This document shows positions 653-50,636 of a stretch of 64,000 nucleotides of DNA, one piece after another. The notes beneath the pieces were generated by a model. The model saw only the letters and a list, made by a program, of their open reading frames with translations. It was not told where the DNA came from and made no database searches. A program made the translations under genes and the position numbers. Every line of letters starts with the position of its first letter. Position 1 is the first letter of the stretch. Source of the DNA: Cristatella mucedo (Eukaryota; Bryozoa; Phylactolaemata; Cristatellidae); contig WPIO01000055.1 of the NCBI GenBank assembly GCA_009760855.2, positions 2,023,501 through 2,087,500 on the forward strand. Direction: 5' to 3'.

Positions 653-717
653 AGAGCAGCAGCAGCAGCAGCGTGGACCTGGGTCCCGAAGCAAAGCTTT
701 TGCTCACCGCAGTCAAG
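653..717 (+). CDS. WRN: WRN copy 1 exon a: start of RQC domain
   Basis: The exon encodes a serine run followed by VDLGPEAKLLLTAVK, which aligns with the WRN segment just before the RQC winged helix (WDFGPQAFKLLSAV in human WRN). The donor is AAG|GTAAGC with phase 0 exit. The acceptor is uncertain: CTCTAG at 651-652 gives phase-1 entry, and an alternative acceptor at 619-620 would add LLSAANGTPL and give phase-2 entry. The zinc-binding cysteine cluster that normally precedes this segment was not found in bases 1-620, so it is probably encoded further upstream. Confidence 0.75.
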
Positions 718-1878
718 GTAAGCTTTTAGATGCAAAGGGCAGGCAGCACATCGCATACTTGCTGCCGAGAATCGGCTATTGTGCAAGAGCTCACGCCCTG
801 CGCAAGCCTGCGAGTGAAGTGCTCGAGCGCGTCTGAGCAAGCGCTGGCTGGTTTTAGCCTGGCCTTGCTTTTTTTGTTAATATTCTATACAGTGGGATCT
901 CAGGTTACAGACAGTTTGGGTCACGAACAATGCGGATTGGCAAAAGAATTACCAGGGTTACGAATCTGGTTCGGGGCTCAGAATCGAGCCCAGTCCTTTG
1001 TGGGGATATTTATCGTGCTTTAGAAAGAGATTCGGTTCTCTCGTGGGGCTATACAATCGTATCATTATGGTTATTATTACTACTACTAGTATTGTTAATG
1101 GGCTTGTAGGAGCTTTAAAAGTGTGTTCGGCATAATAAAGCCTTTGAATGTCTGCTCTCCCGTGTTTCTAAAAACAGCGCCGACAAAAGAAAGACAAAAG
1201 AATGCATTCTCATTGAATGAGCTCTAAAATAAATCTTGCAGGTGCTAGCAAGGTACCAATAAAGCACAAGGGTCGTAGGAGGGTAGGTTAAAACCTCTGC
1301 AATGAGGAAAGAAACCCAAATGCTCTTCTGCCGTAAGGGGGGAATCATTTTAAATATTGGTTAGTGCTTTTCTTTAATCTTGTTTAATGCCGGAATAATT
1401 TATTGCCTTGCTCCTGGAAGAATTAAATTTTTGTATAGTACCCTATGGGAATCACGATCTGGGTTAGGACTAGCCTGGGTTACGAACCTAGTCCCAAAAA
1501 AAAAAACAGATTAGTTCACAGTGAGGGATCCTATTGTATTATTATTTTGTCAGTATCGTTTTTATCAGCACAACTCGGTTTTTGTTTACAGTCGGCTGAC
1601 TCGTGACCTGCGATAGGTTTTCGACCAGCTGGTCAAATATGTTGCAATGATTGAGCTTAACACCTAGTATTACACCGTCCCGATGCCCATTTGCTCTGTC
1701 TGAAACAGTGCTCGACTTTCTTACAGGGTCAGCTCATTTTTTTCAAAGGTAGCTTGTAGCTGTTGTAGGAACTGTTGCCGGTGGCTCACTCCCCCAAGCG
1801 GCCGTCGAGGCGGCTTGGCTGATCGGTCGATGGTAGGACATGTCGGCGTTGGTATCATTCGATTGTGTACCTTGCCCC

Positions 1879-1952
<74 letters not shown>

Positions 1953-4871: not shown

Positions 4872-4930
<59 letters not shown>

Positions 4931-25775: not shown

Positions 25776-25913
25776 CATATTTTAGCGTGGATGAGCAGCG
25801 TGCATGTTTTAGGTCACCGTCGGCGGCTGAAAACTCGCTTGCATGTCACCTGTGGCGCGCACTTGCCGAAGCTCGATCATTCGGGGTCAAAGCCCACTGC
25901 GCCATAGGGTTTT

Positions 25914-26192
25914 ATGTTGGCGTCAGCAGCATTGGTTCGAGCAGTCACAACTGTTGATATTGTGCATGGAAGTTTACTAAGAAGCAGCCGTACCTTTGCA
26001 GGATCTGGTCGGTGCACTATCGTATTTGACAGACTGCTTTCAACAGCAGGCAAAGAGTCGTCCGCCTTGCCGCCATCGTCTGTCACTCCTTCGTTGCCTG
26101 CTGCCCAGCTTCCTGCACCCCGAAGGAATGCCGAGGAATCGCCGATGATGGATCTGGGTGGCGAAGTGCGAGATTTGCTGACGGCTGTGATG
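25914..26192 (+). CDS. Copy 2 exon a: possible start and RQC entry
   Basis: The exon ends [22 protein letters not shown], matching copy 1 VDLGPEAKLLLTAVK and human WDFGPQAFKLLSAV, with phase 0 exit. The frame is open back to ATG 25914, and an in-frame TAG lies at 25905-25907, so 25914 is the earliest possible start if this is a first exon. Alternatively the acceptor CCTTTGCAG at 26000-26001 starts an internal exon at 26002 with phase-1 entry, the same phase as exon a of copy 1 if that begins at 653. The Pro/Ser-rich middle part is not recognised. Confidence 0.6.
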
Positions 26193-29100
26193 GTAATTTG
26201 CTTAGCTGCTCACTTCATCTGACCCGTGAAAGATAAGCTACTGTTCGTTCGTCCTTGACCTTGACTCCATGACCGTACAAGAGATGTTGCATGCATGCCG
26301 TAGCTGCTCGTCGGTTTGTTGTGCCGCCTCTACCGATCCCTGACTGAGTAGTGGAACGTTTATGAACGAAGCCCGTACTGTTTATAATGTCTGGCTAGCC
26401 GACCGCGAAATAGTGCAAGCTCTCGGGCGCAGGGCACGAGTGTGGCTGGCTGTATAGTGTGGCACCAAAGTTTGCCGGTGTGGTACCGAGGTCGAGCCAA
26501 CAGTGGCATGACCGTTAATCCTGTGGCCTACAGGCTAGAGAAAAAACTCAGCTGCTTTTATGCATCCACAGGCTGATCCCAAATCTGCCATATCATAAGA
26601 TGCTCCTTAGGTGTAAACCTGATGTCTCTTTATTGAATTGAGTGATACATGTAGGTTCGTGCACACCCTTCGTGTCAGCCAGGCAGGTGAATGTATCTCC
26701 GTCACTAACTCCACAAAGTCATAAAGACCATGTGGGTGTTACGCAGGAGAGTTTTGTATAGCCCACTCACAGCCTAGGCGGCTTTCGGTTCGCATTCGGT
26801 AGCCAACAGACTTCGTCTCACGCAACAAAGAGAAAGTGGGAAGCATAGCAGAGTTAGGAGAGCAGTTGAGGTAGTGAGTATCATGGAAGTAGCAGTTCAG
26901 GACCGCTGAAAAAGATGTGCCGTAGTCGGCAGTTGGAGAGTAGATGTCGTTTCGTAAGAATTGTGGAAGCGAGTTCCACAGTCTAGGAATGGATAGACTG
27001 CCTCTCATTGTTGGTGTGTTGAATGGCTGGTGGGTAGGGCACGTTTTCGTAGTATCTAGATTGTGACACAGCTTGCTCCTGCGTCTGTCGAAGCAAGTTT
27101 TTCTTTACAACAATTAAGCCCTGCCACCCGTGCATGCCGTGCCGATGAGTTTTCTTACGCATGAAAGCCCGTGTGACTAGCAGCCAACTCGTCCTCTAGC
27201 TCTAGTCATCCGTGCTCCCAAACTACAACTGCTGCTTGGTGGATGAATCTCTTGGTGACTGGTCCATAGTGTTAGTCCTAGACTGTGGAACTCACTTCCA
27301 CAGTTCTTACGCAACGACCACTAAAAATAAAAAAATAAAATCTTAGGTGATTAAACAGCCTCTTTTTGTATAGCGACAGAAGAGCCTTTACGGCTATCAC
27401 CACCGCTTGCAGTGGCGATAAAGAATCGCCCACCGCAGGAATCGAACCCACGACCTCGGGCCGAGGTCGTGAAAAGCAACCGCCTAATCCCAGTGAGCCA
27501 TTGCGGCTCACCGTGAGTAGTGTGATTAACGCGTTGGATCAAACCAAAGTTCTCCAGAAAGTTGAGAAATGAGCTGATCTGGCTTCCGCATAATAATTAT
27601 ATTTGTATTGTTATTATTATTTATTGTTATGTGATGCAATGATTTTAATATTTCTTGTTGCGATTCAGTATAATTGGGGTCTTGCAAATACAGATTAGAG
27701 TTGTTTATTATAATTATAATAAATAATTTAATAAATAAAAGCCTCATTTACATAGCATTCTTAGAGAACTTGATCTCAATCCAGGTGCTTTACATGTGCC
27801 GAAGGGCTTTCCTCCCTGCGCTAAAGAGCAGCCTCGGGCGACTCCTAGCGTGGTGTACACCTTTACTTGATTACTCCGTAATACCTTCGGGTATTCCGCT
27901 GCTATCTTCGCTGTGACTTTTTATGAGCTGTCCTTGGATATGCTACACAAAACAGGACCTGCTTAGCATAAGATGCGATGTCGCCATTAGTCGATACCTA
28001 CCGGCGGGCCTTCTCCGGCGGGTCAGTGAGAACCTTCCTGCATCCTGCGTTCGCCCTATCAACAGCTCGGCTATCAAACCTACGACTCGTAAGTTTAAAG
28101 CGCTAAATAGTACTTGTTGCAGTAGTAGCCCACCCGACGTAGCCCAGCAAGTTGTGAAACGTCGTCCGACGGCCGTTACCAAGGTCCAATTCAAATTCGA
28201 AGAGCCAGCATCCGTCGGGCTAGACGCAAACGGTAGAGAATACGAGCCACTTCATCGCCGTCGCCCAGTTGTTGGACAGCCTTTTAAATTCCGCCTACTA
28301 AATATCCGCTCGCTAAAAACCAAGGGGTTACTTACCCGCAATTAGGTGGTCCAGGAGAAGCTAAATGCATTTCTGCTTACCGAAACTTGGATGACGCCTT
28401 ATTCCAGTAGCTGTATTCCTGAGACCACTCCACCCGGGTTCTCATTCTATCAGTCCATTCGTTCTGACAAGGTTGGTGGCGGGGTTGCAATTGTTGTTCG
28501 CGAATCGTTTGGCTATAAGATGTGCAGTTTCTCGCATGGGCCATCGTTTGAATCGGTTGCTATCAGGTCTTCATCAAAGACAATGCCTCTCACTGTTGTG
28601 ATATACCGGCCTCCCTTCTGGCTGTCTGTCTTAACTTGTTTATAGAGGAGTTTTCAGAGTTCCTCGCTAAAATATTTGTGTGTGACAGGCCGTTACTAAT
28701 TGTAGGAGACTTCAATATTCACTTTAAATACCCTAGCAACAGCCAGGTCCGCTCATTTCTTGACTGTCTGGAGAATCTTGGTTTGGCCCAACACGTTAAT
28801 CATAGCTCCCACGTTGGTGGCCACATTCTAGATCTCGTGATCACTAAGGATGTCCTCCCCACTGACCTTGTGGTGTGCCCACTGACCCTCTCAGATCATT
28901 GTTCGGTCTCGTTTACTGTTCCTGCTTCCTCGTACGTACAGGGCAATGTCGAATTCTTCAAACGACGTAACTTACAAAGCATTGACGTGGACAAGTTTTT
29001 GAAATCTGTTTGTGATGCAGGCCTTCTTGATCTGCATTCAGACTCGACCGACAGCCTCGATACCCTCACTGATGCGATGAACATGATACTCAGGAGTGCT

Positions 29101-32100
29101 CTTGACAAGCATGCCCCCGTTTGCTCTATCCGTGTTCAAAGTCGTCGAGATTGCTTTCAATTTACAAAAAAACTCCTTAAGATGCGCCGTGTTAAGCGCA
29201 GGCTGGAACGTCGCTTCAAGAAATCCGGGTCTGAGGCAGACCTAGTCAATTTTAAAGACTTCCTTCGAGTTTACACCCGAAAGCTTAAAAAAGCCAGGGC
29301 TTATTTTTTCATTAGAAAGCTGAATATCTGCCAGTCGGACACTAAACAGATTTACAAGACAGTAAATCATTTACTGGCCAATGCTGTGAGGTCTGACTCC
29401 CCAGATATTAAGGGCTCAGCCGAAAAGTTTTCAGCCTTCTTTAATGAAAAAAATGTGCACATTTGTGCCTCCATTAAGCCCCCTCCGACCAAAGCAATCG
29501 CCGTTCCTCAACCTGTGATCTTTCTTAAAAGGTTCTTCGATGTTTCTGCCTGTGATGTGGCTACCTTAATAAGGTCTAGCAAAAAGAGCTCGTCTCCTGA
29601 AGACCCTATACCTTCATCTCCGTGGTCTTCACTGGCAGTCGAACTTAGCCCTGCCATAACCCAGATTTGTAATGCTTCTTTGGGAAAAGGGGTCGTCCCC
29701 AAGTCCTTCAAATCGGCAATCGTTAGACCTATTCTTAAAAAGCCTGGATTAGACACAGAGGTCCTAGCAAACTATCGTCCAGTTTCCCTTCTTCCGTTCT
29801 TATCAAAGATTCTTGAAAAAATTGTTGCTAAGCAGCTAGTTGAACGTATTGAAAATAATGGAATGTCAGAAACATTTCAATCAGGGTTCAAGAGGCAGCA
29901 CTCCACTGAAACTGCTCTCCTCCGTGTTAACAATGACATTCTACGTGGCAACGACGATGGGAATGTCACTGCCCTGCTAGATCTGTCTGCTGCCTTCGAC
30001 ACCATTGATAACGAAGTTCTGCTTGAACGATTGAGAACAACGATCGGTCTGGCAGACGAAACACTGGCGTGGTTTAAATCATACTTGTCTGATCGTGTTC
30101 AATCAGTGTGGGGTCAGGTCTCAGACACGAGAAGGGTCACCTGTGGAGTCCCTCAAGGGTCTGTACTCGGTCCCTTGCTGTTCTCTATTTATACACAACC
30201 TCTGGGAAAAGTGATTAATGCCCATGGAATAGGATATCACTTCTATGCTGACGATACTCAGTTGTATTTGTCATTTAAACCGTCGGAATCTGCTGCAGCA
30301 ACTGAGAAACTGAATGCATGCCATGCCGATATTCGATCCTAGATGTCGGAAAACTTCCTGAAATTGAATGACGATAAAACCGAACTGCTGCTCATAGGAC
30401 ACCCTAAGCGTGTGGCTGGATGAAAAGGCTTTGCTCTTCTAATAGGTGATGCTATTGTGCGACCTTCACCACATGCTCGTAATCTAGGTGTCGTGTTCGA
30501 CAGCTGCCTCAATTTCAAAAGCTTCATTCAGAAGACTGCCTCTACAGCTAGCCATCACATCCGATCCCTATCCAAGATTAGAAGCTGTCTCCCACAGTGG
30601 CTTGCAAAAAATTTAACTAGCTCTTTAATTCTGTCTCGGCTTGATTATTGTAATTCCCTTTTGGCTGGGCTGCGAAAGAAAGCTATTATGCCACTACAGC
30701 TGACTATGAATATGGCTGCAAGGCTGGTCTTCAAGTCCCAGCGGTTTGTGCACGTGTGTCCTCTGCTGAAAGAGCTAGAGGATGGTTGCCGGTTGAGCAA
30801 AGGATACAGAGCAAAGTTCTTATGCTGACCCACAAGGCACGCCACGGCTTGGCTCCTTCGTACCTAGCTGAACTGCTGCATCAGTTTCAGCCTGTTCGCG
30901 CCCTCAGGTCCTGTGTGGACAATACATTAGCTGTCCCATTTCTCCGCTTAAAGACAGTTGGCGATAGAAGCTTTAGCTCTGCAGGTCCTAGACTGTGGAA
31001 CTCGCTTCCACAATTCTTACGCAACGACTCTCCAACTGCCGACTATGGCACATCTTTTTCAGCGGTCCTGAACTGCTACTTCTATGCCACTCACTACCTC
31101 AACTGCTCTCCTGACTCTGCTATGCTTCCCACTTTCTCTTTGTTGCGTGAGACGAAGTCTGTTGGCTACCGAATGCGTACCGAAAGCCGCTTAGGCTGTG
31201 AGTGTGCTATACAAAACTCTCCTGCGTAACACCCACCTGGTCTTTATGATTTTGTGGAGTTACTGACGGAGTTACATTACATTACATTAGGGCTGGAACC
31301 TGTGGCTCTGGTTGTTTAAGGCAGGGCACCAGTGGACCAAACCAGGGTGGCATAATTACAGTGCTTCCGTAGATTATATGTAGTTATCAAATAGTTTTAT
31401 ATTATATAATATTTGTATTATAGTTTATTATATAGTTCATGCCTCGAAGCAGTGCATCGTCAGCACTGCCCTCCGAGTTCAGCTTGCTGGCGATGTTGAG
31501 AGTGGTGCAGTTACCGGCTGCAGCGTGCCTTTCTCGAGAGCATAGCTGTGACAGCAATAAGCCGACCGTCTGACGTTTAAGAACCGTTGAAGCTGGCACG
31601 TGGCTCTATTGAGTGGTATTTTGGGTCGGGAGCAGTCAGAAGCCTCTACCGATAGTTGACTGGTTGCTTATGAGCCACGTGGCTTGGATGCTTCGAGACC
31701 ACGTGCTTGCATTCTTCAGGTCATGCATGAGAGGTTCGGTCGACATACGGTGGCACAATTTCTACGAGGTGTCAGTACGCCGAGTCTGGCCAGCAAGATT
31801 GGGAAGTGCGTGTCTCTGCCCGAGTTTGGCTGTGGCAGCTACCGCTCGGAAGCCTTCTGGGTCGCTCTGGGTAAGCAGCATTTGGCCTTGACTTTGTCAT
31901 CTCGTCTCTCCCCTGAGACGCTGCCTGCTGCTCTACAATAATGCCGGTCGCGTCCTTGATTCTTTCAGGAGTTTAGGGTTGTTACCTTAGAGCCAGATTG
32001 CAATTCTGCGTTTAGTCATGCAGTCAGTTTGAGAAGAATGCCAAGCCATTTACCATTACACCGGCACAATAGTATACTTTAGTTTACTGTCGTCTGTTTG

Positions 32101-35100
32101 CAGTTTTTAGTTGCCTCGTAAGCCGTGTCTCATTTGGCTGTGATTGTGGCCAGCCCGATATTACTTTATAGTAAAATAAAAGAAAATAAGGTTTGCTGAT
32201 GTAACTTAGTAATAGTAATGATACAGCGTATATATATGGATACAGCGGATATATTGCTGTGGTTTTTTGCTCTCTTCTTCTTTTTTTAATGGCCACAATT
32301 CAGCAGACGTCGCTATATTTTTTGTAAGTGTGTTGTAAGCTTCGGAAGCATTAGAACTGCTTTTGCATTTGGCATCTCCTTGCATTCGATCGACACATCT
32401 TAGCTTCAACGTTTTGCTTTCTAAGCAAAGTTGTGTTGGGATTTTGACACCACCTCCGGGTTGTTCACAGCTCTGCTGCAGCCAAAGGCTGTATGCACAC
32501 ATGGTCGGCTTGACTAGCGTTCCAAGATCCGGCTACTCGTTACTCCTCATGTTCTTTAATAGCAAGGATAATAATGATACATTTTTATAGAACCCTTCAG
32601 AGAACTGAATCTCTCTCTAGCCACTTTACAGGTGCTGCATATAAAGCATTACCAAATGTTTGGTGGTAATATCCGCAAGCAGCAGGTATAATGTGCAAGC
32701 ACGTACATGCACACGAAGGGCGAATCACGAAGACCCACAAAATCACGAAGACCCACCAAATTCTGTAATAAAAAGGTGCATTTTAAACTTCTTTTTAATT
32801 ATCATCATGTCAGGGGACATTGTGACATGCGTCGGTAGTGAGTTCCAGGCTGTGGGAGCATAGGAACTAAAGGCAGGGTCTCCAACGGTTTTGAGGTTCA
32901 TACGAGGTATGGCTAAACGATTCGAATCAGAACAGCTGGTCGTACGATTCTTGGCCTGGTGGGGGGAGTACTTATAGGTAGGCTGGAGCCAGAGAATGAA
33001 GGGACCTAAAAGTAAGGGACAGAATAGTGAAGTCAATGTGCTGCTTGATTGCGAGCCAGTGCAGGTCGGTGAGAAGTGATGTAATGTGGCAACTGCTACG
33101 AACTCACGACAGATGAGCCTAGCTGCAGAGTTTGGCACCAGTTGAAAGGCTCCTAATTGCATGCACTGGTAGACCAGCAAGCAATGAGTTTCTTTGAGGG
33201 CAATCTTTGAGCTGCCTGATTGTTGAAGTAATGCTGGTAGTGTACATAGTGGGAGCCTGCCTTGTAATGTTGTGCTGAACATGTTCAAGTCGTCAAACGT
33301 CTTCAGCATCACGTGACTGCCTTTTCTTTTTGCAGCCGACCAGCTGATTGCTGATGGCTTCCTGAAGCAGCGATACTACGGCCATATGCCTTGCCTACAG
33401 CTGACCAATGCGGGCCTCAAGTGGCTGAGCACAAACATAGAAGGAACGTTACCGAAAACTATGATGCTTCTACCAAAAGCAGCCTTGATGCATGCACTGG
33501 CTATCAGCAAGACCGATCCTTTGCCATCAATTAGCAGCAATGTGGCTGCTCTCCCGGATGCGCCTGCAACTGATGTTCCGATTTTGCCACGGTAATTTCC
33601 ATGATCGTCAGTGCTGTTTTGCATTTGTGCTCAGCCAGTACCACTAGGCAGCGATGATGGCAAGTATTGTTTACGAGTCAAGGCGTTTTGCTTAATCGAC
33701 GGCAGGCTACTTGGTTTATTGTTGCTCTGCTCTCAAAGAAAAGTTGTGGCACTAGAAAGAAGGGATCTATCGTCATTTGCGTTTGAACTCGCTACCCGAT
33801 AGCAGATACGGAAGCTGCCAGGCTGGGTTATTTGACACTCGGCAGGCTTGATGTCGACTCTTTCCAGCTTTCCATATTCTCGATGGTGTGAGGTACTAGT
33901 TCGATCTGACCAGTGTGCTGGAGAGTTTCGGATTTTGCTAGCTGCTGGATGACCTCGTGGCTCATTGGGCCTATCATCTGTGCTCGGTTCTACATGGCAT
34001 CTGTTTGGTTCCAGTCACCGTTGCGCTCAGCTGGGAATTGCATGCATCTGGTTGCATAGAGCTGGGGCTGACTCTAGTCTGCAGAGCATCGATGCTGCAG
34101 CGGCATGTTGTTGCAGACACACAGCTTCTAGCAGCCCGACCAGCATGCCGTCCTCAGCAGGCAGAACAGGAACGATCATGTCAAACGGTGCGAGCAGTGA
34201 CAAAGAGGTGAGAGAAAGATTCGGCAATCTTATTTTTTCGTTATTTTTGCACTCACTTCCCTAGAGTGCTGCCAGATGGTGACTCGAGAAAATCGCAGGA
34301 CATTGCTTGCGGTGTTAAAGTGCAAGGTTCTGGACCTGCCTCGAACTAGTTGCCTCATGATTGGTACCGACACCAGGCTCTTGCAGTGCTGGCCAAGCTT
34401 TGGGTAACTCAGCCCTTGCAGGAAGATGCTACTGGTGCAGTACGACTGCAAGCGATCATGCAGCGGTGGCCACGTACTGCCACAAGAGAAGCTTCTAGGA
34501 AGCAAGCCATCAGGGTCAGGCTGCTAAGCCGTGATGTAGCTACCCGTGCCAGGCGATCTCCTGTCTGAATCTCGATTTGTCTTGGCTGGGAAGTAGTGCA
34601 GTATCAGACTGCGCCGATGTGACATCATTTGGAATTATTGCAGTGACACAGATGCTCGATACTTGCGGATTGGTATAGCATCACAGGAGTTACGTAGCTG
34701 CATTAATGCTTCAGCAGAGCAATACAAACCTGTTCAAATATGCACGAGGCATAAGCAAGCAGCTTTTTTGCTTCGGATTTTGCAGTTGATAGGCTGTGCC
34801 GGTTGTGAGCCCATTAACACAAATGATGTGAAATGAGGCTGCACTAGAGCTACCTAGCAAGGGTGCGACTGCATTATTGAAATGCCGGAACCATCACACT
34901 TGGTCAAATTATTAGTGTTAGAAATTCTTAGCAGTTTTAGAATTGTAAGCATCATGAACCATGAAACATGTCATAATCTGTTATTTACAAAGTATCAAAT
35001 GCCTTAGTGATGGTTAGTCAATGGTACTTTGGGCTTCGAGTTGTTGCATGCCGAGTTTTACGCTGTGGCTGGTGCTGTCCACGTGCGCCTCTCTATGGCT

Positions 35101-38100: not shown

Positions 38101-41100
38101 GACAGCTGCCTAAATTTTATAAGCATTCGGAAGACTGCTTCTACAGCTAGCCATCACATCCGATCCCTCTCTAAGACTAGGAGCTGTCTTAAACAGTGGC
38201 TTGAAAAACAATTTAACTAGCTCCTCAGTTCTGTCTCAGCTTGATTATTGTAATTCTCTTTTGGCTGGGCTACCCAAAAAGCAACCAGGCCACTGCAAAT
38301 GGCTGTGAATATGGCTTCAAGGCAGCTAGTTTTCAAGTCCCATAGGTTTGACCATGTGACTTATCTGCTAAAAGAGCTGGGATGGCTGCCGGTTGATCAA
38401 CGGATACAGAGCAAAGTTCTTACGCTGTCCCACAAGGCCCGCCACGGCTTGGCTCCTCCATACCTAGCTGAACTGCTGAACCAGTTTCAGCCTCTTCATG
38501 CCCTAAGGTCCTGTATGGACAATAAATTAGCTGTTCCATTCCTCTGCTTAAAGCCGTTGGCAACAGAAGCTTTAGCTATGCAGGTCCTAGACTGTGGAAC
38601 TTGCTTCCACATTTCTTAGGCAACAACAACTCTCCTGCTGCCGACTATGGCTCATCCTTTTCAGCAGTCCTGAGCTGCTACTTTAATGCTACTCACTACC
38701 TCAACTGCTCTCCTGACTCTGCTATGCTTCCCACTTTCTCTTTTTTGCATGAGATGAAGTCTGTTGGCTACCGAATGCGTACCGAAAGCCGCTTAGGCTG
38801 TGAGTGCCCTATACAAAACTCCGTCCTAACACCCACATAGTCTGTATGGCTTTGTGGAGTTACAGACGGAGATACATTGCATTCACTTCAACTTTCGCCG
38901 TGCACCGTGCACGGAGTAAGAAGGCACTGATCAGCGTCAACTACTTGTCACTTTTGTTGTTGAGTTTCAGCGGATAACCTTTCGGAGTTCGGAACTCGAG
39001 GCTTCGGTTCCTGTTGCTCCCATCTCCCGGTGTACGATCAGACGATATTTGCTCCATCCAAGGTGCTTTGTGGATCCGCCCGATGCACCTGTGTCTTATC
39101 TATTTGTTTCTACGTGCCGTTTGTCGTATCTTGCTTCTCAAGCGATAATGTACTAATGAATGCTTGTTGACTAATCTACATTAGAACAGAAGAATAGCAA
39201 TTTCTTTTTTCTTTTACGTGACTTTCTTTTATTAAGATTAGCAAGATGGTACTCGGAGTCTTGGCTGCTTATTGCAAAAAGAGAATAAAAGATCGCGTAC
39301 CAGACGTCAGAGACATGCAGGCACTTGCAAAGCACAGGTATGGGGAGCTCCATTCTTGCGCATGCAAACCTGCTCCAAGAGCTGTTTACCCCGACGTTAT
39401 GTGCTGCACATAAGGTCGGCCGAGTTTAGGCATTCTGTGCATTCTGGCTCGTGGCATTCCTGCATGCATTTATGTCAGTATGCAGCCCTTATATCGCATG
39501 CAAGCTCAGTCTCTCCAGACATCTCGCAGGTACTCTATTGATTTAATACTGTTGGCAGAGGCTTTTATTACCAGCTAGTCACATGAGGTGGACTTCTGCA
39601 GTTTTCTCTCGATAATACCTTCTGTCGGATGCTGCTTATCCAGAGCTCCAAACGAGGGTTTGCAGTTTGACTATATTTTGCAGACACCACTATTAATTCC
39701 GGCCCACTGCCACCCACTTCGATATATGCGTATGTATGTATGCTAAAATTCGGGATTGTTTAGATAAGAATACCACATCTAAGTTGGTCCATGCATTCGT
39801 GACATCCCGTCTCGACTTCTGCAACTCACTGCTCGCTGGCCTACCGGCATGTGCGATCAGGCGATTGCAGCTGGTGCAAAACTCAGCAGCTAGGCTTGTC
39901 TGTCGTGAGCGTCGCAGTTGCCACATTGCTCCACTTCTCGCCGACCTGCACTGGCTACCAGTCAAGCAACGGATTGACTTCAAGGTTTTGTCGCTCACTT
40001 TGAGGTCACTTCATTCTATGGCTCCAGCCTATCTCTCAGATCTACTCCCCCACCAGGCCAAGCATCGTACCACCCGCTTTTCGGAATCCAACAGTCTACA
40101 AATACCCCGTACAAACCTCAAATCCTTTGGAGACCGTGTATTTAGTTCGTATGCTCCCAAAGCCTGGAACTCTCTCCCGACCTGCGCCAGAACATCCCCG
40201 GACCTGACCACATTTAAAAAGAACTTAAAAACACACCTATTTAGGACAGCATTTAGTGGGTCCCTGTGATTCGTCCTTCGTGTGCTTATGCGTGCTGAAT
40301 AACCACATTTGCATGCATCCCCTGTGCATGTCACCCCTAACCATGTTATTCATTTTGTTTGTTTATCAAGCATGATTTTACTCACCATTCAATTGCATTT
40401 CCCTTTGCAGCAAATGTAAAGCGCCTAGAGAGATTAAGTTCTCTGTGGGCGTTTTATCAAGTGCATTATTATTATTATTATTTTGCTGTTCGAAGGACTA
40501 GCGATTGTGTATTACATTGCACAGTGTGTGGCGATTATCCACAAAATTTCGCGGCCTTGTACCCTAGTATCTGAACATTCGTGTGAAAATCAACTGCCCA
40601 TATTTCATGGCAAGTGAGTGGGGCTGGCAAGCTATCTAGATGAACTTATGGTGGATCGTGGTTAATCTTGGTTAATCGTGGGATTTATATTTTGAGATTG
40701 TGTTCAACTGCGATGGAGCAGTCACACTTCCTACTTTCTTTAATAATAATAATAATAATAATAATAATTCACTTGATAAAGCGCCCTCAGAGAACTTAAT
40801 CTCTCTTTAGGCGCTTTACATTTGCTGTAAAGTGAAATGCAATTGAATGGTAAGTAAAATCATGCTTGAAAAACAAACAGTATGAATAACATGGTTGAGG
40901 GTGACATGCACTGGTCAGCATGCAAATGTGGTTCTTTCTGTCGATGCAGTGCCTGGTGCTCCTGCTTAAGTGCATATCTTCGATTCAAAGTGTGCATGCA
41001 TCTTGCAGGCCCACTTCTCAAGAGAACCTGCGAAGAATCGGCAGCCTTTCGGCAGCCAAGATCGAGTTCTTAGGAGACAGTGTCCTGAAGCTCATGCAAG

Positions 41101-44100
41101 AGTTGTGCTCTGATAGGGGTCTTCAGTCGGACGTATTTGGCGACGACGGTACGTCGTCAGTCCCTCAGGTAGGAGACACAATGTTTCCTCCCGTGGATTT
41201 CCTTCCCTTGAATACCGGGCAGATAAGCACTGCAACTTGACGATGCTCCTGAGACCCTTGGGGCATGGTGCTGGCACTGTGTATTCAACATGGCACTTGG
41301 TGTTTAATTAAAACTAATCCAGAACGTTACAGTACCTAATGCAATGAGCTTTTGCAAAGACAGCAGCTTTCTTTTCAAACGAGGCTATAGGCCTAAGCAT
41401 GCTGCTAAGCGTATTCAATATTTTCTCGCTACACTAGTGCATTTAATATAGGCTCATTGGATAAAGGAATGACTTAGTCAGTCTCCAGACCCGAATAACA
41501 TTTTAGTGTCTCAGAGGTGAAGTGGATAATAATGATAACATAATTTATTCGTGTATAGTATATAGCGCTATATAGCGTATATAGCGCCCCAAGAGAACTT
41601 AATCTCTATTCAGGCGCTTCACATATGCCTCTGGGCTCGAGCCCACGACCTCAGCCAGACCTTGGTCGGGTGGGGGGGGGTGAGCACCTTAACCGCTGGA
41701 CCAAACCAGCTCTCCGGATAGCAGCAGAGACGGATTTTCATTTGGCTGACAAGACCTGCAAATTTTTTATGTAGGGGACAACGACCCACAAGACGTTCGT
41801 GTGGGCGTGGCTAGATTTGCAATTATTTAAAAATAATTGCACACTAAGTCATAGTGTTTATTTCGCATACCTCGGCAGTTGTTCATCGAGTGGAATTAAG
41901 ACATAATTTCGTCCAGGTTGCAGCCCTGCTGTCGGAGGGGGACGCAAGTGTCCCCTGCCTGGTTCCCCCTGGTTCGGCCACTGGATAGAGGGCTTAGAGC
42001 TTAAGTGGGTCGCAGGACGTGTAAAGGCTAGCTTTTCCCAAGTTTTCAGGACGTTTCGAGAACTATAAGGTCAAATGTTTGCGAATTGTTATTTTGCTCT
42101 CTTCTCGGGCAGCCGAGACAGGTTATTGGGAATTGTGCTGCATAGCTTCATTTTAGCACTAGAAATAAATATACATGTACTGAAATTTTGCTTAAATTTT
42201 CCATAATCTTATTACATATATTGCGAATGAGCGCAGCAGGTTGCAGTAACACTTTTTTTAACCCAGAATTGGAACTTATTTTTGGATCCAGCCATCGTTT
42301 TAGGCAGCCTCTCTGATACTTTGGCCCTCGAATGTTTGTACACTTCAAATTTCTGTCGTCAGAAGGCAAATATCATTGACACCTTCTGTGGAGCAACGAC
42401 GTAGTACTGCATTTTCAGTTACCAAAAACTGGGAATTGGCTCTCATCGCCCCATTCAATTTATCTTCAGTCGTCGATGGTCAGGTGAACTCTCGCTCTAG
42501 CTCACTCCAAACGAGCCACTTTATTCTGGCCGGGCAGAAAGAAGTCTTCTTTTCTTTAGCATTTCGAGCAATCATACCTTATTCATCTGGTCGACGTCTG
42601 ATCGTTTATGCCAGATTTGGTGCTGTGTAATGGCAGTCGTCAAAGGCATGCCGGTTGGCGATTGTGTGAGGCTAGTCGGTTCTCTGTCGTTTTCATACTA
42701 CTGCTACACACTTGCATACTACTACCTACTACTCCATACTACTGTCATTTCCAAGTACCTCCAAAAACGGACAGTACAGTCATTTGGAAGGCACTGGGAA
42801 AAGGTGGACATCTGCCTTATGTAAAAGAATGTTAAGGGTCGAAGATGCTTTCTCGCGTTAATTTTTTGTTGTATACACTAGTTTTCTGAACGCACCGTCA
42901 TTAAAGGCATTATGTTAATTGGGCATATCTGTTCTTTGTCCGTTGGTCTAATTTTCACAGCATATTACCTGCTACTTAAAATAAGTCGCTGATATTGTTT
43001 GCGCTGGAATGTATATGTATGCATGCTCGTGTGCGTGTGCGTGCGCTGTCTCGAGCATGAGTGTATGCGTATGTGTGTGTTTGTGTGATTGCGCACGTGT
43101 ACATGAGCAGATATATCTAGTTATCTTAAACAAGATTCTGCACAGCATAGTTGAAACATCGATTGGTGAGGCTGTATGCCAAAATCTACTAACCCAGCAA
43201 ATGAGTATGATGGCATATGATAAATGCATGGCTGTGCGTGCAATAACTGTAACTGAGAGCAGATGTTTTTGTATACTGCTGTTCAAGGAGTGGGTGGGAT
43301 GAAGAGGTGTGGAAGAAGGAGGACTTAGCCTGACGTCTATTTCTTTCTAGTTTCCAGCCGTCTCAGCAGAACTTTGACTCCTTTTGTAGTTTCACTCCGA
43401 CAGGGATACCACATCCAAGCTGGCCCATACATTTGTGACAGCCCGTCTTGACTTCTGAAACTCACTGCTTGCAGGTTTTTCGGCCTCGTCAATAAGGTGC
43501 TTACAGTTAGTGCAAAAAGTCGGTAGCCAGGCTTGGCTGTCTTGAGCTTCGTAGTTTTCTAATTATACCTATTGTCACCAACCTGAACTGGCCTCCCCCA
43601 TCAAGCAGTGTATTGACTTCAAGGTTGTTGTCACTCACTTTTAGGTCCCTTCTTACAGGCTCTTGCTGCAGCCTGCTTATTCGAACTGCTTCCCTATCAG
43701 CATAGACATCGTACCCTACCCGTTTTTCTGGCTCAAGCTTTAGCTGTGCTTCCAACTAACCTCACATCCTTTGGAGACTGCGTGTACTGCTTGTATGCCC
43801 AGTAGGCCCAAGTCTGTGGGCTACCGATTTTGAGCTTTGGCAGAACTCATAGATATCGACCTGCAGTCTCGTCAAGTGATACTAAAGTCTGCACCCATGT
43901 TGCCATATTTGGTAGTCTTATCGATATTTAGATATCGATAGTAGCCTTTTGCAATACCCTTGGAGCAGTCTTTCGAATTGATTGTCTTGATTTCACCCGA
44001 AAACAAGCTACCGATGGTGGCAGTAGTCTGTCGCCTACCAGGTACCAAATCTTCCTTTATCTCAGATTTCTCCGATCTCATTTCGATTCTGCATGCAAGA

Positions 44101-47100: not shown

Positions 47101-47293
47101 TCAATTATGTCATGTTCGGACTCCGAGGTCGGACACACCTTTTGTATCTTATGCTGCTTTGGCAGGCTCGAATTGCGCCCTTGTTGCTTCGTGGTATGCC
47201 ATCTATTGTCAAGGTCGATTCAAACCGGCACACCCAGTGTCCCTTCAGTTCGTTGTGGACGCGTGTGTATTGCTGAGTCTCCCAGTTCTGGCT

Positions 47294-47330
<37 letters not shown>

Positions 47331-49147
47331 CATTAGGCAGGCCGTTGTATGGTATAGATCGACGGAAATGTGACAGTTGCTCTTCCGATTAAAGTTGAAA
47401 GTCAAACTAGTCAACGGGATAGCCCTTTGCAATGCCTGACGATCTGCATTTGACGACCAGACTCCTTGTGCATTTTAGTGCTTAGCGGTTGGCAATGTAA
47501 AGTGAAGCATCGTATCATCGTGCAGTTTTGAGCTCTGCTTTTTTGCCAGATCCGATGGTCGGCTCCATAGCTCCGTTGCTGACTCGTGCAGCGCTACGAT
47601 TGCAGCAGCTGGGAGTGGATCCGTCACTACACGTGGCATTCAATGCCTTACCCAAAACCGTCCAGACCTCGTACAATTTGGTGAAAAGCAAAGCAGCTGG
47701 CGTGGTAAGTCTATGCTTTGATTAGCTCCGGCTCGGATGATCCTGCAACTATATGCTGAGCCGCGATGCGCCAGCTGTCCTCGATACCCATCGGTCCTGC
47801 AGTTTGTGCATCCGCTTTATTGCCAAGCATTGCCTAGCTGAAAAGTTTGTAGAATAAAACGATGGTAAGAGGAGAGAGGCAGAAGAGGGGAGAGGAAGTG
47901 TACCTTTTTTACACGATTGCAGGAATTTGCAGCCACGCAAAGGGGACTTCAGCCCATGACAATTACGAAGCACGTGCTAAAGGCGATGGCATCCGGTCTT
48001 CCCGTGGATCATCGAGACTTTTTAATCAGCGATGACATGCTTCGCCGAGCCGAGCAAGTCTTGCGTTCACTGCCACCGACGGCAGCAGCCAGTGAGCAGT
48101 TGTTGCATGCAATGTGTTATCGACATCGTTAGGGACGATAGAACGTGAAGTCGTGACAGAAAACGTGGCATCTGCCGTCTTTATTTGCCAATTAAGCACA
48201 GATTTTTCAGACGTGAACATGCATACTTTGCCGAAGGTGTCATGGAAGTGGCCGGTTCCTCGTGGCAGGCATGCACGTCTGCCTGCCATTTTATTCATCC
48301 TTGCATCTGTCGTTGGTGATGACCATGTCCGTAATGTGGCACACTCGAAGGTTGCTAGAGTTGCTCAGTCGCTGGCAGCGCTCACAGCTAAAGCTTTACC
48401 TGCCGGCACAGGTATATTCGCACGTGCTCGCCTGTGGCTGTATTCAAATAGGGTAATGTTTTGTATCCCAGTCTAGAACTATGCGCAAATCCGCAAGGAC
48501 TATGTTTGTGTTACACAGTGGTGGCTCACTAGGTAAGGTGGTTGTTTTTCACGACATCGGTCCTGAGGTCGTGGGTTCGAAGCTTTTGGTGGGCGATCCT
48601 TTATTGCAGCTTCAAGCAGTGGTGATGGCCTTTAAGGCTCTTTTGTCGCTATATAGAAGAGTTTTCTACATTGCACTCAAATCCCAAGTGACTTTCGGTA
48701 CATATGTGGTAGCTTGCAGACTTAATCTCACATAGCATAGATACAATGAGAAGCATAGCTGAGTCAGGAGGGCAGTTGGAGAAGGGAGTAGCATGGACGT
48801 AGCAGCGCAGGACGTCTGGAAAGGGCAAGCCATAGTCGGCAGCAGGAGTGTAGATGCCGTTGTCTAAGTAAGAGTAGTGGAAGTGAGTTCTACACTGTAG
48901 CACCTTCAGAGCAAAAGCTGTCACCAACGGTGTTAAAGCGGAGGAATGGACCAGCTAATTTATTATCCATAAAGGACCTGCGGGCATGAGGAGGCTGAAA
49001 CTGGTGCAGCAAGGGTTGCCAAGCTGTGGCGGGCCTTGTTTGTCAGTATAACAATTTCGCTCCGTGTTTGTTGATTACCCAGAAGCCATCTAAGCTCCTT
49101 CATCAAAGGAGACACATGGCTAGCTTCTGTTATTGTCTTACCTTGCA

Positions 49148-49225
<78 letters not shown>

Positions 49226-50636
49226 AACACACACACACACACATACACACACCTACCTACCTAAAGCAACGATGAACAATCCGAATGATCCAAGATTGCT
49301 GCCTTGCAGCCCGTGTTTTAGTTTGTAGCTGGCAGGTGTTATGCTGGCAGCCGGCTCTGTTGAGCTTAGGACGAGAACAGGCTGCAGTGCTGCATGCGGT
49401 GATGCCTTCGCGGTCTTCGTATGCACTCACGAGATCCATTTGAGCTGTGCTGTAAGGAGGCCATCTTCACAGCGAGTATTTCTGCTCCTGGGGCACGTTC
49501 TGATCGTCGGCTGCTCAATCAGAGTAGCTCATTGAGGTTCAGCTATGTCTGCTGCTAAACTCACTGAGCGTGTAAATGGTTTTGATCTGTTGACTTTTGA
49601 TGCAATGAGGACGTGAGCATCGTGCATGTTGGCGGCTTTAAATCGCAAGGCTCACATCATTTTTTGTGCACACCGGCGCTACCGTATCTTGTGCACGGCT
49701 CTGGTAGTCCTGTCGTGCTAGTTCGGCACCCGGTTCGGCCAAGCTCTCGCTAATGACTTCCAAAGTGCTACATGTGCATGCTCTACTTCTTGTTCACATT
49801 CTTCATCGATGTATTCTGCAAATGCATCAAGCATTCGTCTGTGGTATTCGTACTAGTACATTCACACATTACACTGTGATCAGTGTCTGCATCTAAGAAC
49901 GTAATGTCAGTCCTTTTTTGTCTTTGTAAGACGCTTTTTTTGCAGCGACTACTTTTACATGGTTCAGTCATGCTTCCTTTGCAGCATGTGTAAAATGCCT
50001 AGAACGAGATTTAGTTCTCTGAGAGTGCTATACAAATTATTATTACTAGTATTATTCTGTTTGTTCGTGCCTATCGGTTGGGTACGTGCTTGTATGGGCT
50101 TATGGTGTATGCTTAATGATGCACTCGCTCGGATGCTCAGATGTCTACTTTGCTGTTAAACGGTTGGATGACTCAGTGCTGCTAACTTCTTACTAGATCA
50201 TTCGCAGTAACACGGTCAGAGTTGATTCATTAATTCGTTGATGAACCGAGCGATCGTCTAATTTTATCTCCCAGGCTAATGTTTTGCAGTTTGGCACCAG
50301 CCGAGGCAGCTATGCCTAGTAAACAGCTATACAGCTGTAGTATCGCTGCAGTGAGCTGAGAACCCCAACTCTTGTGCTGCAGACTCTTGTGCTGTAGCAG
50401 CTTGTTCTTGTCCAGCTGCTTTAATGCTTCCCATCTGCCTTTTTCTTTTTATTACAGACTCGTCCAAATGGCGAGGCATGACAGAAGCCCTGCCCGGCTT
50501 CAAGCCTTATCAGATTATTGCTGCATTGTCCTTGCTGAGGCGCAGTGGCGCCGGCATCACTGTGCCTCAGCAAGGAGGCAGTGATGCGTCCGTCAGAGCG
50601 TTGTACTTTTATGGTCCAGATGGTCCTACCCATTGA
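25914..50636 (+). CDS. Second WRN-like RQC-HRDC-HTH gene or module (copy 2)
   Basis: Nine exons by eye: 25914 (or 26002)-26192, 31720-31870, 33336-33591, 34117-34207, 39237-39337, 41009-41168, 47606-47704, 47923-48091 and 50458-50636. Each aligns in order with copy 1, with the same intron phases (0,1,2,0,2,0,0,1). Two exons have identical length (151 and 160 nt). From the ATG at 25914 the coding sum is 1485 nt, giving 494 residues and TGA, with no internal stop. Domains are RQC, HRDC and C-terminal HTH; protein similarity to copy 1 is moderate, so the duplication is old. No DEAH helicase or exonuclease exons were recognised between 9.5 and 25.9 kb. It may be a helicase-less paralogue, an alternative C-terminal module of the upstream gene, or a duplicate with an unrecognised 5' part. 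The long Ser/Thr-rich linker and LPTWF tail of copy 1 are missing. Confidence 0.75.
26690..27010 (-). mobile_element. LINE-A 3' end fragment
   Basis: A minus-strand LINE-A end ([40 protein letters not shown]). Small further pieces of the same family follow: 27268-27322 (+, ACTGTGGAACTCACTTCCAC) and 27508-27595 (-, endonuclease region), the latter two flanking a SINE-2. Confidence 0.8.
27323..27505 (-). mobile_element. SINE-2 (tRNA-like), inserted in LINE-A debris
   Basis: Read on the minus strand: GCAATGGCTCACTGGGATTA (box A-like), GAGGTCGTGGGTTCGATTCC (box B-like), GCGATTCTTTATCGCCACTG, AGCCGTAAAGGCTCTTCTGT, and a tail CGCTATACAAAAAGAGGCTG followed by an A/T-rich end. There is no match to SINE-1 beyond the tRNA-like boxes. 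Confidence 0.8.
27722..27815 (-). mobile_element. SINE-1 tail fragment
   Basis: AAATAAAAGCCTCATTTACA, AGAGAACTTGATCTCAATCC and GGTGCTTTACATGTGCCGAA: the 3' half only. Confidence 0.6.
27810..31290 (+). mobile_element. LINE-A, near full-length L2/CR1-like retrotransposon (broken)
   Basis: An apurinic-type endonuclease is followed by reverse transcriptase. Endonuclease motifs seen: [38 protein letters not shown] and [11 protein letters not shown] motifs seen: [66 protein letters not shown] and [13 protein letters not shown], then the L2-type C-terminal region ([34 protein letters not shown]). It ends in a short CATTA-type repeat at about 31265-31288. It is dead: stops at 28343, 30340 and 30421, and frameshifts near 28630 and 30790. 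It sits in the copy 2 intron before exon b. Its 5' limit is approximate. Confidence 0.9.
28636..30342 (+). pseudogene. LINE-A endonuclease C-terminus plus reverse transcriptase ORF
   Basis: The longest open stretch of the element (568 codons). It covers the GDFNIH and SDH endonuclease motifs and the RT core including FYADD. It stops at a TAG where sister sequence has a Trp codon before [13 protein letters not shown], and it is frame-shifted relative to the upstream endonuclease part. The L2/CR1-group assignment rests on motif wording and the 3' repeat. Confidence 0.88.
31720..31870 (+). CDS. Copy 2 exon b: RQC winged helix, first half
   Basis: 151 nt after ATTCTTCAG, donor CTGG|GTAAGC, phase 0 in and 1 out. 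It encodes [18 protein letters not shown] and [15 protein letters not shown], parallel to copy 1 TLGQRFGITAPVLFLRGS and GSGRHRSESFWKALG. It lies just after a near full-length LINE-A that occupies the preceding intron. Confidence 0.85.
32560..33240 (-). mobile_element. LINE-B 3' part, degraded
   Basis: Minus-strand C-terminal text ([26 protein letters not shown]) and tail ATAATGATACATTTTTATAG. It lies in the intron between copy 2 exons b and c. Confidence 0.8.
33336..33591 (+). CDS. Copy 2 exon c: RQC wing and linker
   Basis: The acceptor is CTTTTTGCAG and the donor CACG|GTAATT, phase 1 in and 2 out. The exon encodes [32 protein letters not shown] and then a linker. It corresponds to human RQLITEGFLVE ... 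KICALTKKGRNWL. The wing residue aligned with human Phe appears to be His here (YGHM). Confidence 0.85.
34117..34207 (+). CDS. Copy 2 exon d: RQC-HRDC linker
   Basis: A Ser-rich linker exon ([18 protein letters not shown] ... SSDKE) between TTGTTGCAG and GAG|GTGAGA, phase 2 in and 0 out as in copy 1. There is no domain and no detectable similarity to the copy 1 linker, so support is only from position, phase and splice sites. An in-frame acceptor at 34133-34134 is also possible. Confidence 0.5.
34208..35821. other. Copy 2 intron, unassigned part
   Basis: Between linker exon d and a LINE-B. Nothing recognised. Confidence 0.5.
35822..36512 (-). mobile_element. LINE-B 3' part, left of a SINE-2 insertion
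   Basis: From the AATAATAATGCACTTGATAA tail into the RT C-terminal region ([18 protein letters not shown] on the minus strand). It is interrupted by SINE-2 at 36513-36672 and resumes at 36673-36935. Confidence 0.85.
36513..36672 (+). mobile_element. SINE-2, inserted in LINE-B
   Basis: AGGTAAGATGGTTGCTTTCA, CGAGGTCGTGGGTTTGATTC, TAGCCGTAAAGGCTCTTCTG and an A/T-rich end. It splits a LINE-B copy cleanly. The extreme head (TGGCTCA part) is weak. Confidence 0.82.
36673..36935 (-). mobile_element. LINE-B RT fragment, right of the SINE-2 insertion
   Basis: Minus-strand coding for [40 protein letters not shown] and [13 protein letters not shown]. It is collinear with the piece at 35822-36512, so one LINE copy was split by a later SINE insertion. 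Confidence 0.83.
36936..37977. other. Copy 2 intron, unassigned part
   Basis: A tandem duplication of about 40 bp (ATTAATCAGGAAAGGGTCGA at about 36942 and 36982) and an open minus-strand stretch 37192-36977 without a recognised domain. Confidence 0.45.
37978..38885 (+). mobile_element. LINE-A 3' part
   Basis: Plus-strand 5'-truncated LINE-A from [13 protein letters not shown] through the L2-type C-terminal region ([31 protein letters not shown]) to the GGAGTTACAGACGGAGATAC tail. Several frameshifts. It lies in the copy 2 intron before HRDC exon e. Confidence 0.85.
39237..39337 (+). CDS. Copy 2 exon e: HRDC domain, first half
   Basis: It encodes [20 protein letters not shown] and [11 protein letters not shown], an HRDC-like first half (general pattern VP...L..IA..R). 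Phase is 0 in and 2 out; the donor CACAG|GTATGG joins the next exon to restore the RPTS motif. The acceptor used is CTTTTATTAAG at 39235-39236. This exon is shorter and more diverged than its copy 1 counterpart. Confidence 0.65.
39741..40482 (+). mobile_element. LINE-B 3' part
   Basis: Plus-strand LINE-B C-terminal region ([57 protein letters not shown]), open to 40269. The 3'UTR ends GAGATTAAGTTCTCTGTGGG and ATTATTATTATTA. It lies in the copy 2 intron between HRDC exons e and f. Confidence 0.87.
40741..40935 (-). mobile_element. LINE-B 3' end fragment
   Basis: Minus strand; begins with a TAA repeat, then GCGCCCTCAGAGAACTTAAT and CAAATGTAAAG-complement motifs. It lies just before HRDC exon f, nearly head-on with the LINE-B at 39741-40482. 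Confidence 0.82.
41009..41168 (+). CDS. Copy 2 exon f: HRDC domain, second half
   Basis: 160 nt after CATCTTGCAG, donor CTCAG|GTAGGA, phase 2 in and 0 out. It encodes [20 protein letters not shown] and [19 protein letters not shown], clearly the second half of HRDC and equal in length to copy 1 exon f. A second possible donor (GACG|GTACGT) lies inside the exon but breaks the conserved phase. Confidence 0.87.
41525..41718 (-). mobile_element. SINE-1
   Basis: Tail TATAGCGCCCCAAGAGAACT, then CATATGCCTCTGGGCTCGAG, CCACGACCTCAGCCAGACCT and AACCGCTGGACCAAACCAGC. It is a full-length copy with a poly-G slip in the head and an expanded TATAGCG tail. It lies in the copy 2 intron after HRDC exon f. Confidence 0.85.
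41719..43374. other. Copy 2 intron with a possible RQC exon relic
   Basis: Mostly unassigned. 42608-42800 carries short matches to the RQC exon (see findings). A GT/TG-rich patch lies at about 43015-43100. Confidence 0.4.
43375..43830 (+). mobile_element. LINE-B C-terminal fragment, degraded
   Basis: ACCACATCCAAGCTGGCCCA, GTCTTGACTTCTGAAACTCA and CTTTGGAGACTGCGTG match the LINE-B coding strand in order; no reading frame survives. Confidence 0.65.
43955..46925 (+). mobile_element. LINE-B, longest copy (broken non-LTR retrotransposon)
   Basis: Endonuclease C-terminus (43960-44691; [24 protein letters not shown]), a SINE-1 insertion at about 44770-44880, then RT ([18 protein letters not shown]-like text, [59 protein letters not shown]) and the L2-type C-terminal region ([41 protein letters not shown]). 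It ends in ATT repeats at about 46903-46928. The endonuclease GDFNIH motif is decayed to HDFKIH, and there are several frame breaks. It lies in the copy 2 intron before HTH exon g. Confidence 0.88.
44765..44880 (-). mobile_element. SINE-1, internally deleted, inserted in LINE-B
   Basis: ATAATTCATTTGAATAGCGC, AACTAAATCTCTATTCAGGC and CGATGGACCAACCTAGCTCG are present; the box B region between them is missing. A 27-bp direct repeat (44674-44700 and 44704-44730) lies just upstream. Confidence 0.75.
47296..47330. repeat. (AAT)n microsatellite
   Basis: About 11 units of ATA/AAT, not attached to a visible LINE-B tail. Confidence 0.9.
47606..47704 (+). CDS. Copy 2 exon g: start of C-terminal HTH
   Basis: 99 nt, phase 0 in and out, after GATTGCAG, donor GTG|GTAAGT. 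It encodes [20 protein letters not shown], which lines up with copy 1 LPDTVQTTYVMLQCEG and human LSQSMAITYSLFQEKK. The frame is also open further upstream, but only this acceptor keeps the conserved phase. Confidence 0.78.
47923..48091 (+). CDS. Copy 2 exon h: C-terminal HTH core
   Basis: The acceptor is ACGATTGCAG and the donor GCCA|GTGAGC, phase 0 in and 1 out. The exon encodes [20 protein letters not shown] and AMASGLPVD ... VLRSLPP, parallel to human [21 protein letters not shown] and VIRNPPVNS. The frame reads on to a stop at 48132 if the donor is not used. Confidence 0.83.
48520..48664 (+). mobile_element. SINE-2
   Basis: GTGGTGGCTCACTAGGTAAG (box A-like), GAGGTCGTGGGTTCGAAGCT (box B-like), TTTAAGGCTCTTTTGTCGCT. 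It abuts the LINE-A fragment at 48665 and lies in the copy 2 intron before the terminal exon. Confidence 0.8.
48665..49148 (-). mobile_element. LINE-A 3' fragment, degraded
   Basis: On the minus strand: LWxxLP-type text, [13 protein letters not shown] and GGCGGGCCTTGTTTGTCAGT. It runs from the (AT)n tract back to SINE-2 at 48520-48664, in the intron after copy 2 HTH exon h. Confidence 0.7.
49151..49252. repeat. (AT)n followed by (AC)n microsatellite
   Basis: About 75 bp AT with a few C interruptions, then about 25 bp AC. It abuts a LINE-A fragment on the left. Confidence 0.95.
49955..50055 (+). mobile_element. LINE-B 3' end fragment
   Basis: CTTTGCAGCATGTGTAAAAT, GAGATTTAGTTCTCTGAGAG and a short ATT repeat. 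Confidence 0.75.
50458..50636 (+). CDS. Copy 2 terminal exon: end of HTH
   Basis: After TTTTTATTACAG, phase 1 in. It encodes [20 protein letters not shown] and IAALSLLRR, matching copy 1 DVSRLSAIKAALPDYTYEQI and ILEHEYG. A short tail of about 30 residues ends at TGA 50634-50636. The long linker and LPxWF/basic tail of copy 1 are absent; a further exon cannot be excluded but none was seen. Confidence 0.78.

Follow-up and report, generated by a model that had tools for sequence, protein, structure and literature searches.

A WRN-type helicase locus of the bryozoan Cristatella mucedo with two tandem C-terminal modules and one detected helicase exon set

The WRN-type helicase locus of Cristatella mucedo contains one detected set of helicase and zinc exons followed by two tandem nine-exon sets, copy 1 and copy 2, each of which encodes the C-terminal half of such a protein. 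The window analyzed here is a stretch of 64,000 nucleotides (assembly GCA_009760855.2, contig WPIO01000055.1, positions 2,023,501 to 2,087,500 of the forward strand), and coordinates are given as window positions, with negative numbers lying upstream of base 1. With a probability of roughly 0.55, we propose that an old partial tandem duplication of the 3′ half of the gene gave rise to one helicase gene with two alternative C-terminal modules, both served by a single helicase and zinc exon set. The shared last exon, ending in phase 2 (..CG/GT, with the slash marking the splice boundary here and below), would be spliced to copy 1 at 621 across a 2.5-kb intron, or the same zinc exon would be spliced to 26033 across a 27.9-kb intron, bypassing copy 1 and its 3′ end. 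The result would be two helicases that share a motor but differ in their RQC-HRDC-HTH_40 halves, the copy 2 half having diverged about sevenfold faster, with changed DNA-wedge residues and without the WRN-like tail.

Copy 2 is a chain of nine plus-strand exons (26033 to 50636) that is open throughout and encodes RQC, a sub-threshold HRDC, and HTH_40. Spliced at canonical sites, it yields a product of 464 residues, the first of which is incomplete. Exon 1 (26033 to 26192, 160 nt) follows the zinc module and contains the start of RQC; its acceptor reads gacag/A, and it is entered in phase 2 and left in phase 0. The RQC winged helix is encoded by exon 2 (31720 to 31870, 151 nt, phase 0 to 1), and the RQC beta-wing and linker are encoded by exon 3 (33336 to 33591, 256 nt, phase 1 to 2). 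Exon 4 (34085 to 34207) encodes linker, exon 5 (39242 to 39337) contains the start of HRDC, and exon 6 (41009 to 41168, 160 nt, phase 2 to 0) also encodes HRDC. HTH_40 starts in exon 7 (47606 to 47704, 99 nt, phase 0 to 0) and extends through exon 8 (47923 to 48091, 169 nt, phase 0 to 1). The last exon, exon 9 (50458 to 50636), ends in a TGA stop codon and lacks a C-terminal WRN-like tail; an ATTAAA is found 3′ of it at 51055.

Copy 1 (621 to 9501, plus strand) encodes a spliced product of 752 residues, again with an incomplete first residue. Its exon 1 (621 to 717; acceptor cgtag/A, phase 2 in) is followed by an RQC exon of 151 nt (2223 to 2373) that is the partner of copy 2 exon 2. Exon 3 (3562 to 3868) is the partner of copy 2 exon 3, while exon 4 (4270 to 4369) is only weakly similar to its partner, as is the first of two HRDC exons (5323 to 5441) to copy 2 exon 5. 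The second HRDC exon (5723 to 5882, 160 nt) pairs with exon 6, and the two HTH_40 exons (7498 to 7590 and 7726 to 7888) pair with exons 7 and 8. Exon 9 of copy 1 is long (8435 to 9501), and it is its start that pairs with copy 2 exon 9. It ends in a WRN-like tail (KRLLPTWF...KKKKGVFLP) whose match to the human WRN tail is weak by itself (37.5% identity over 24 residues, E value of 1.7).

A sequence-only reading of this DNA had described the nine exons of copy 2 as matching those of copy 1 one for one and in the same orientation, and this description stands. Six of the nine exon pairs were detected, collinear and on the plus strand, by an unspliced tblastn comparison of the window against itself (E values of 5.9e−11, 2.5e−8, 2.1e−5, 3.0e−4, and 0.007, with the exon 1 pair reaching only 0.12), and exons 4, 5, and 9 were paired through order, frame, and spliced alignment. 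The spliced proteins share 27% identity (124 of 457 columns) with an E value of 9e−41. Together, the self-comparison and the spliced alignment rule out a chance likeness of the two copies. The equal lengths that had been noted were borne out for exons 2 and 6 of the two copies. The further claim of identical intron phases holds at the other junctions, but the exon 4/5 junction of copy 2 can be built in two ways: 34187 joined to 39237 matches the phase 0 of copy 1, and 34207 joined to 39242 gives phase 2. Of these sites, 34207 is the stronger donor and 39242 the weaker acceptor.

Splice sites were scored with matrices of approximate metazoan frequencies that were not trained on the host genome. 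Each of the eight donors in copy 2 outscores more than 95% of the GT sites in the window, and the nine acceptors range from 70.5% to 100%, with those of exon 5 (70.5%) and exon 7 (78.0%) the weakest. Three boundaries, the start of exon 5 and the start and end of exon 7, were set so as to keep the frame. Copy 2 is therefore open across its junctions partly by choice, whereas its openness within exons is not by choice, and confidence is lowest for the exon 4/5 junction and the junctions of exon 7. With the junctions chosen with frame in mind, copy 2 contains none of the stops, frameshifts, or lost splice sites that would mark a pseudogene.

The search for helicase exons covered 194 kb in all, made up of the window, 80 kb of upstream flank, and 50 kb of downstream flank. 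The queries were human WRN and Escherichia coli RecQ sequences and the helicase peptides of the locus itself. The human WRN query detected one WRN-type helicase and zinc exon set at about −14.7 to −1.8 kb, with up to 63% identity exon by exon and with the motifs GYGKSLCYQ, VDEAHCVSQWGHDFR, VAFGMGIDKPDV, QEIGRAGRDG, and CCDNCRQR. Within the window, the best match of this query to a helicase part had an E value of 2.9 and contained a stop. The absence of helicase exons noted in the sequence-only reading holds across the window and the next 50 kb downstream, but one helicase set is present upstream of base 1. No further helicase exons were found with the human WRN and E. coli RecQ queries at an E value of ≤0.05 at −80 to −15.3 kb, 9.6 to 25.9 kb, or 50.7 to 114 kb. 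DEAH-box exons between the copies, one of the refuting observations set beforehand, were not detected at 9.5 to 26 kb. The helicase peptides of the locus, searched to +74 kb, gave short matches only; the best, a 22-residue minus-strand match of a zinc-exon peptide (E value of 0.007) that overlies exon 7 of copy 2, is taken as chance. For the first helicase exon, the stretch between the copies was covered by the human and E. coli queries alone. Across the 194 kb, searches for a third C-terminal set gave only low-complexity matches, and no WRN exonuclease exon was found with the human query at an E value of ≤0.05 within 80 kb upstream.

Copy 2 alone does not appear to be a self-contained RecQ helicase, as no DEAH-box motifs or zinc module of its own was found in the window or to +114 kb. 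It might belong to a full-length WRN paralogue with helicase exons located elsewhere or diverged past recognition, a form of the duplicate with an unrecognized 5′ part that had been considered before. The human WRN query detects even the C-terminal exons of copy 2 only at E values of 9e−4 to 0.57, and a helicase part as diverged as these exons might be difficult to recognize. As a rule, however, the helicase part is conserved better than the remaining exons, and the identical queries that find the upstream exons give no helicase match at 9.5 to 26 kb or on to +114 kb. We consider a full-length paralogue very improbable; a whole duplicate with its own helicase is unsupported across the 194 kb examined.

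The single zinc exon can be joined in frame to either copy. Its donor at −1846 (contig position 2021654; ..TGC AGG CAG CG/GTAAAG) is in phase 2 and in frame with both 621 and 26033, homologous acceptors that each read AG/ACTGCT. The predicted joints are R-LLSAANG for copy 1 and R-LLSTAGK for copy 2. In acceptor scans, 26033 scored highest (5.7) of 6 frame-keeping AGs at 25880 to 26145, with 26126 second (5.3), and 621 scored highest (4.2) of 7 at 400 to 690. The first exons had previously been placed at 26002 for copy 2 and 653 for copy 1. We revise these starts to 26033 and 621, which are more probable, being in frame with the upstream zinc exon. Joined to that exon, acceptors 26002 and 653 give the wrong frame, and 26002 yields a stop. 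Among the meanings that had been put forward for copy 2, that of an alternative C-terminal module serving one helicase has the best support, by virtue of the single zinc exon in frame with both first exons, and both junctions are probably used. Several observations run against this two-module reading. There is an in-frame ATG at 25914, and acceptor 26002 taken alone has a better score (8.2) than 26033. Two of the acceptors in copy 2 are weak, three boundaries were revised, and the HRDC of copy 2 is under the Pfam cutoff; the 3′ end of copy 1 must also be avoided and an intron of 27.9 kb is needed.

In the main rival explanation, copy 2 would be an independent WRN-C gene without a helicase, translated from ATG 25914 directly into the RQC exons or from an ATG pair (26145/26148) following a private or trans-spliced leader. 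Its product would be a free DNA- or partner-binding fragment, for example, one that regulates the helicase. The frame that starts at ATG 25914 is open and continues in register into copy 2 exon 1, so an independent start of copy 2 is possible; about 40 codons lie between the two (25914 to 26032, plus strand). This open frame is unremarkable, however, with a probability by chance of about 15% on a rough estimate. The 46-residue stretch that begins at this ATG contains 5 basic and 2 acidic residues, a composition that is possibly organelle targeting. The ratio of observed to expected CpG is 1.08 to 1.29 at 20 to 21.5 kb against a median of 0.76, with other stretches high too, and this CpG-rich stretch is a possible private promoter of copy 2, although a promoter is not expected to come along with a partial duplicate. 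That WRN RQC and HRDC fragments have been solved on their own (3aaf and 2e1e) also favors a free C-terminal protein. On the other hand, a helicase-less gene needs neither the phase 2 acceptor at 26033 nor the AG/ACTGCT identity of that acceptor with copy 1. We regard a separate gene as a tentative and rather unlikely explanation, and retain two modules behind one helicase as the preferred one.

In codon comparisons, copy 2 shows the pattern of long-term coding constraint. The alignment spans 420 codons with 124 identical residues, and the copies match at codon positions 1, 2, and 3 with frequencies of 0.479, 0.533, and 0.343, compared to 0.272, 0.255, and 0.264 expected by composition. NG86 estimates between the copies were 0.80 for dN and 2.30 for dS, the latter near saturation. 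When neutral drift to 30% identity was simulated, 0 of 200 runs from copy 1 and 0 of 200 runs from copy 2 were stop-free. The runs contained a mean of 14.0 stops from copy 1 (minimum of 4) and 15.9 from copy 2 (minimum of 6), compared to none in the real copy 2, and the simulation rules out that copy 2 was a pseudogene throughout its history. The sequence-only reading had taken the surviving open frames as a sign of selection; the codon-position pattern and the drift simulation support this indirectly, although the branch of copy 2 is about seven times as long as that of copy 1. A young pseudogene, functional for most of its history and still intact in appearance after a recent loss of function, would fit that branch and the two weak acceptors, and 38% of 400 runs were still open when neutral drift was limited to 0.02 substitutions per site. 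With drift of 0.10 substitutions per site, however, about 1% of 400 runs were free of stops, and all 464 codons of copy 2 are stop-free with a canonical splice site at every boundary. We consider recent loss of function improbable.

In a five-row tree, the two copies group with support of 94/91, just under the level that the tool stars, with branch lengths of 2.48 for copy 2 and 0.36 for copy 1; the few rows and long branches make the placement of long rows unsure. This grouping and these branches suggest that the duplication is lineage specific and that copy 2 is fast-evolving, and the long copy 2 branch is compatible with relaxed constraint, too. No relative of copy 2 was found among the 8000 candidates scored in each of two protein database searches and the 213 scored in a third, and a 25-base copy 2 pattern matched only itself. 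Pfam searches of the genome itself, which are weak for exon-split domains and missed even the copies in the window, gave no match for HTH_40 and, for RQC, only a helicase on another contig. The latter (C221, 2965451 to 2965705, minus strand) is another RecQ helicase gene in this genome, with an RQC exon of 56.4 bits, and by eye it is BLM-like.

Both copies contain the Pfam domains RQC, HRDC, and HTH_40 in this order, with the HRDC of copy 2 slightly below the curated cutoff. In copy 2, RQC (residues 39 to 138) scores 49.6 bits against a cutoff of 23, HRDC scores 22.4 bits against a cutoff of 23.8 and covers only profile positions 32 to 67 of 68, and the HTH_40 that follows scores 29 bits against a cutoff of 27. 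Copy 2 matches the WRN HRDC structure 2e1e with an E value of 0.0038. The best match of both copies in the PDB is human WRN; for copy 2, the closest entry is WRN 9hzg (E value of 1.6e−18), and the best non-WRN RecQ entry is 4tmu (E value of 0.0012).

The copies differ at DNA-contact residues. Aligned to human WRN, copy 1 retains R987, S989, K1016, and F1037, whereas R993 is replaced by N and M1038 by G. In copy 2, R987 and M1038 are retained, and the residues aligned with S989, R993, K1016, and F1037 are V, S, V, and H, respectively; the last is a wing position at which BLM has Asn. The net charge of RQC is +1 in copy 2 versus +7 in copy 1 and human WRN. The HTH_40 region is basic in copy 2, with a net charge of +8 compared to −2 for copy 1 and 0 for human WRN. 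In human WRN, F1037 and M1038 cap the wing that splits the duplex (PMC4212688), and R993A or F1037A abolishes forked-duplex binding and strongly reduces unwinding (PMC3409678). As copy 1 also lacks R993, residues of the R993/F1037 type alone do not decide activity. The two products may prefer different DNA substrates.

A full-length metazoan SRP RNA (7SL) gene (19317 to 19615, plus strand; 241.6 bits, model positions 1 to 299 of 299) sits between the modules and, were copy 2 joined to the helicase exons, would fall within the 27.9-kb intron. Broken LINE-type reverse transcriptase and related frames were recognized by eye on both strands at 15.4 to 16.0, 28.5 to 31.2, 32.7 to 33.4, 39.7 to 40.3, 43.9 to 46.9, 51.2 to 52.3, and 53.8 to 57.6 kb, and such fragments occupy the introns of copy 2 and adjoin it. 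The stretch from 59.0 to 63.5 kb is GC and CpG rich, with a ratio of observed to expected CpG of 1.15 to 1.4 in 8 of 9 500-base windows and with long simple repeats, and is possibly the start of a neighboring gene. Beyond the window, at about 70.6 to 71.4 kb in window coordinates, the minus strand contains an open frame with a partial homeodomain, which by eye we take to be an even-skipped (Evx)-type homeobox gene.

Human WRN has one C-terminal module. The order RQC-HRDC-HTH_40 and the best PDB match tie both copies to the C-terminal half of WRN, and copy 1 keeps the WRN-like tail; in contrast to human WRN, the locus described here has a tandem pair of C-terminal modules downstream of a single helicase set, and no exonuclease exon was detected within 80 kb upstream. 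In Drosophila, mod(mdg4) and lola have common 5′ exons and many short alternative zinc-finger tails, partly trans-spliced. Shared 5′ exons and alternative 3′ parts are common to these genes and the arrangement proposed here, but the alternatives here would be two homologous enzyme halves.

C-terminal swaps by tandem duplicated exons are already known as a class. They account for 77 of 236 human events of tandem duplicated exon substitution (PMC9741552). As in the events described there, homologous tandem exons in the same phase are present here (the exon 4/5 junction being ambiguous), and both copies can be joined in frame to one upstream exon. The unit differs from those events in being a nine-exon, multi-domain module of about 460 residues with about 27 to 30% identity, and mutual exclusion of the two modules is a prediction here. 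The chelicerate sDscam genes have 5′ tandem cassettes with alternating promoters, most cassettes comprising two or four exons (PMC4835542). Multi-exon tandem cassettes with one constant part are a shared feature, but the cassettes of the present locus are 3′ and follow a common 5′ part. No report of a duplicated or alternative C-terminal module of WRN or RecQ was found among the papers listed by the literature searches, which cover few subscription journals.

Substrate choice by RecQ helicases is thought to be due largely to the RQC and HRDC parts. One splice choice may swap this whole DNA-recognition half, giving one motor two modules with different DNA-wedge surfaces and two substrate preferences, a proposal for and against which we find the balance even. 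Should copy 2 encode a C-terminal protein of its own, that protein would be a WRN relative without a helicase, and to our knowledge, such relatives are known only as laboratory fragments. If the two-module reading is true, the locus would be a natural domain-swap experiment in which the recognition half has been doubled behind one motor and the products can be compared directly, and C-terminal tandem-exon substitution would be extended to a nine-exon, multi-domain module.
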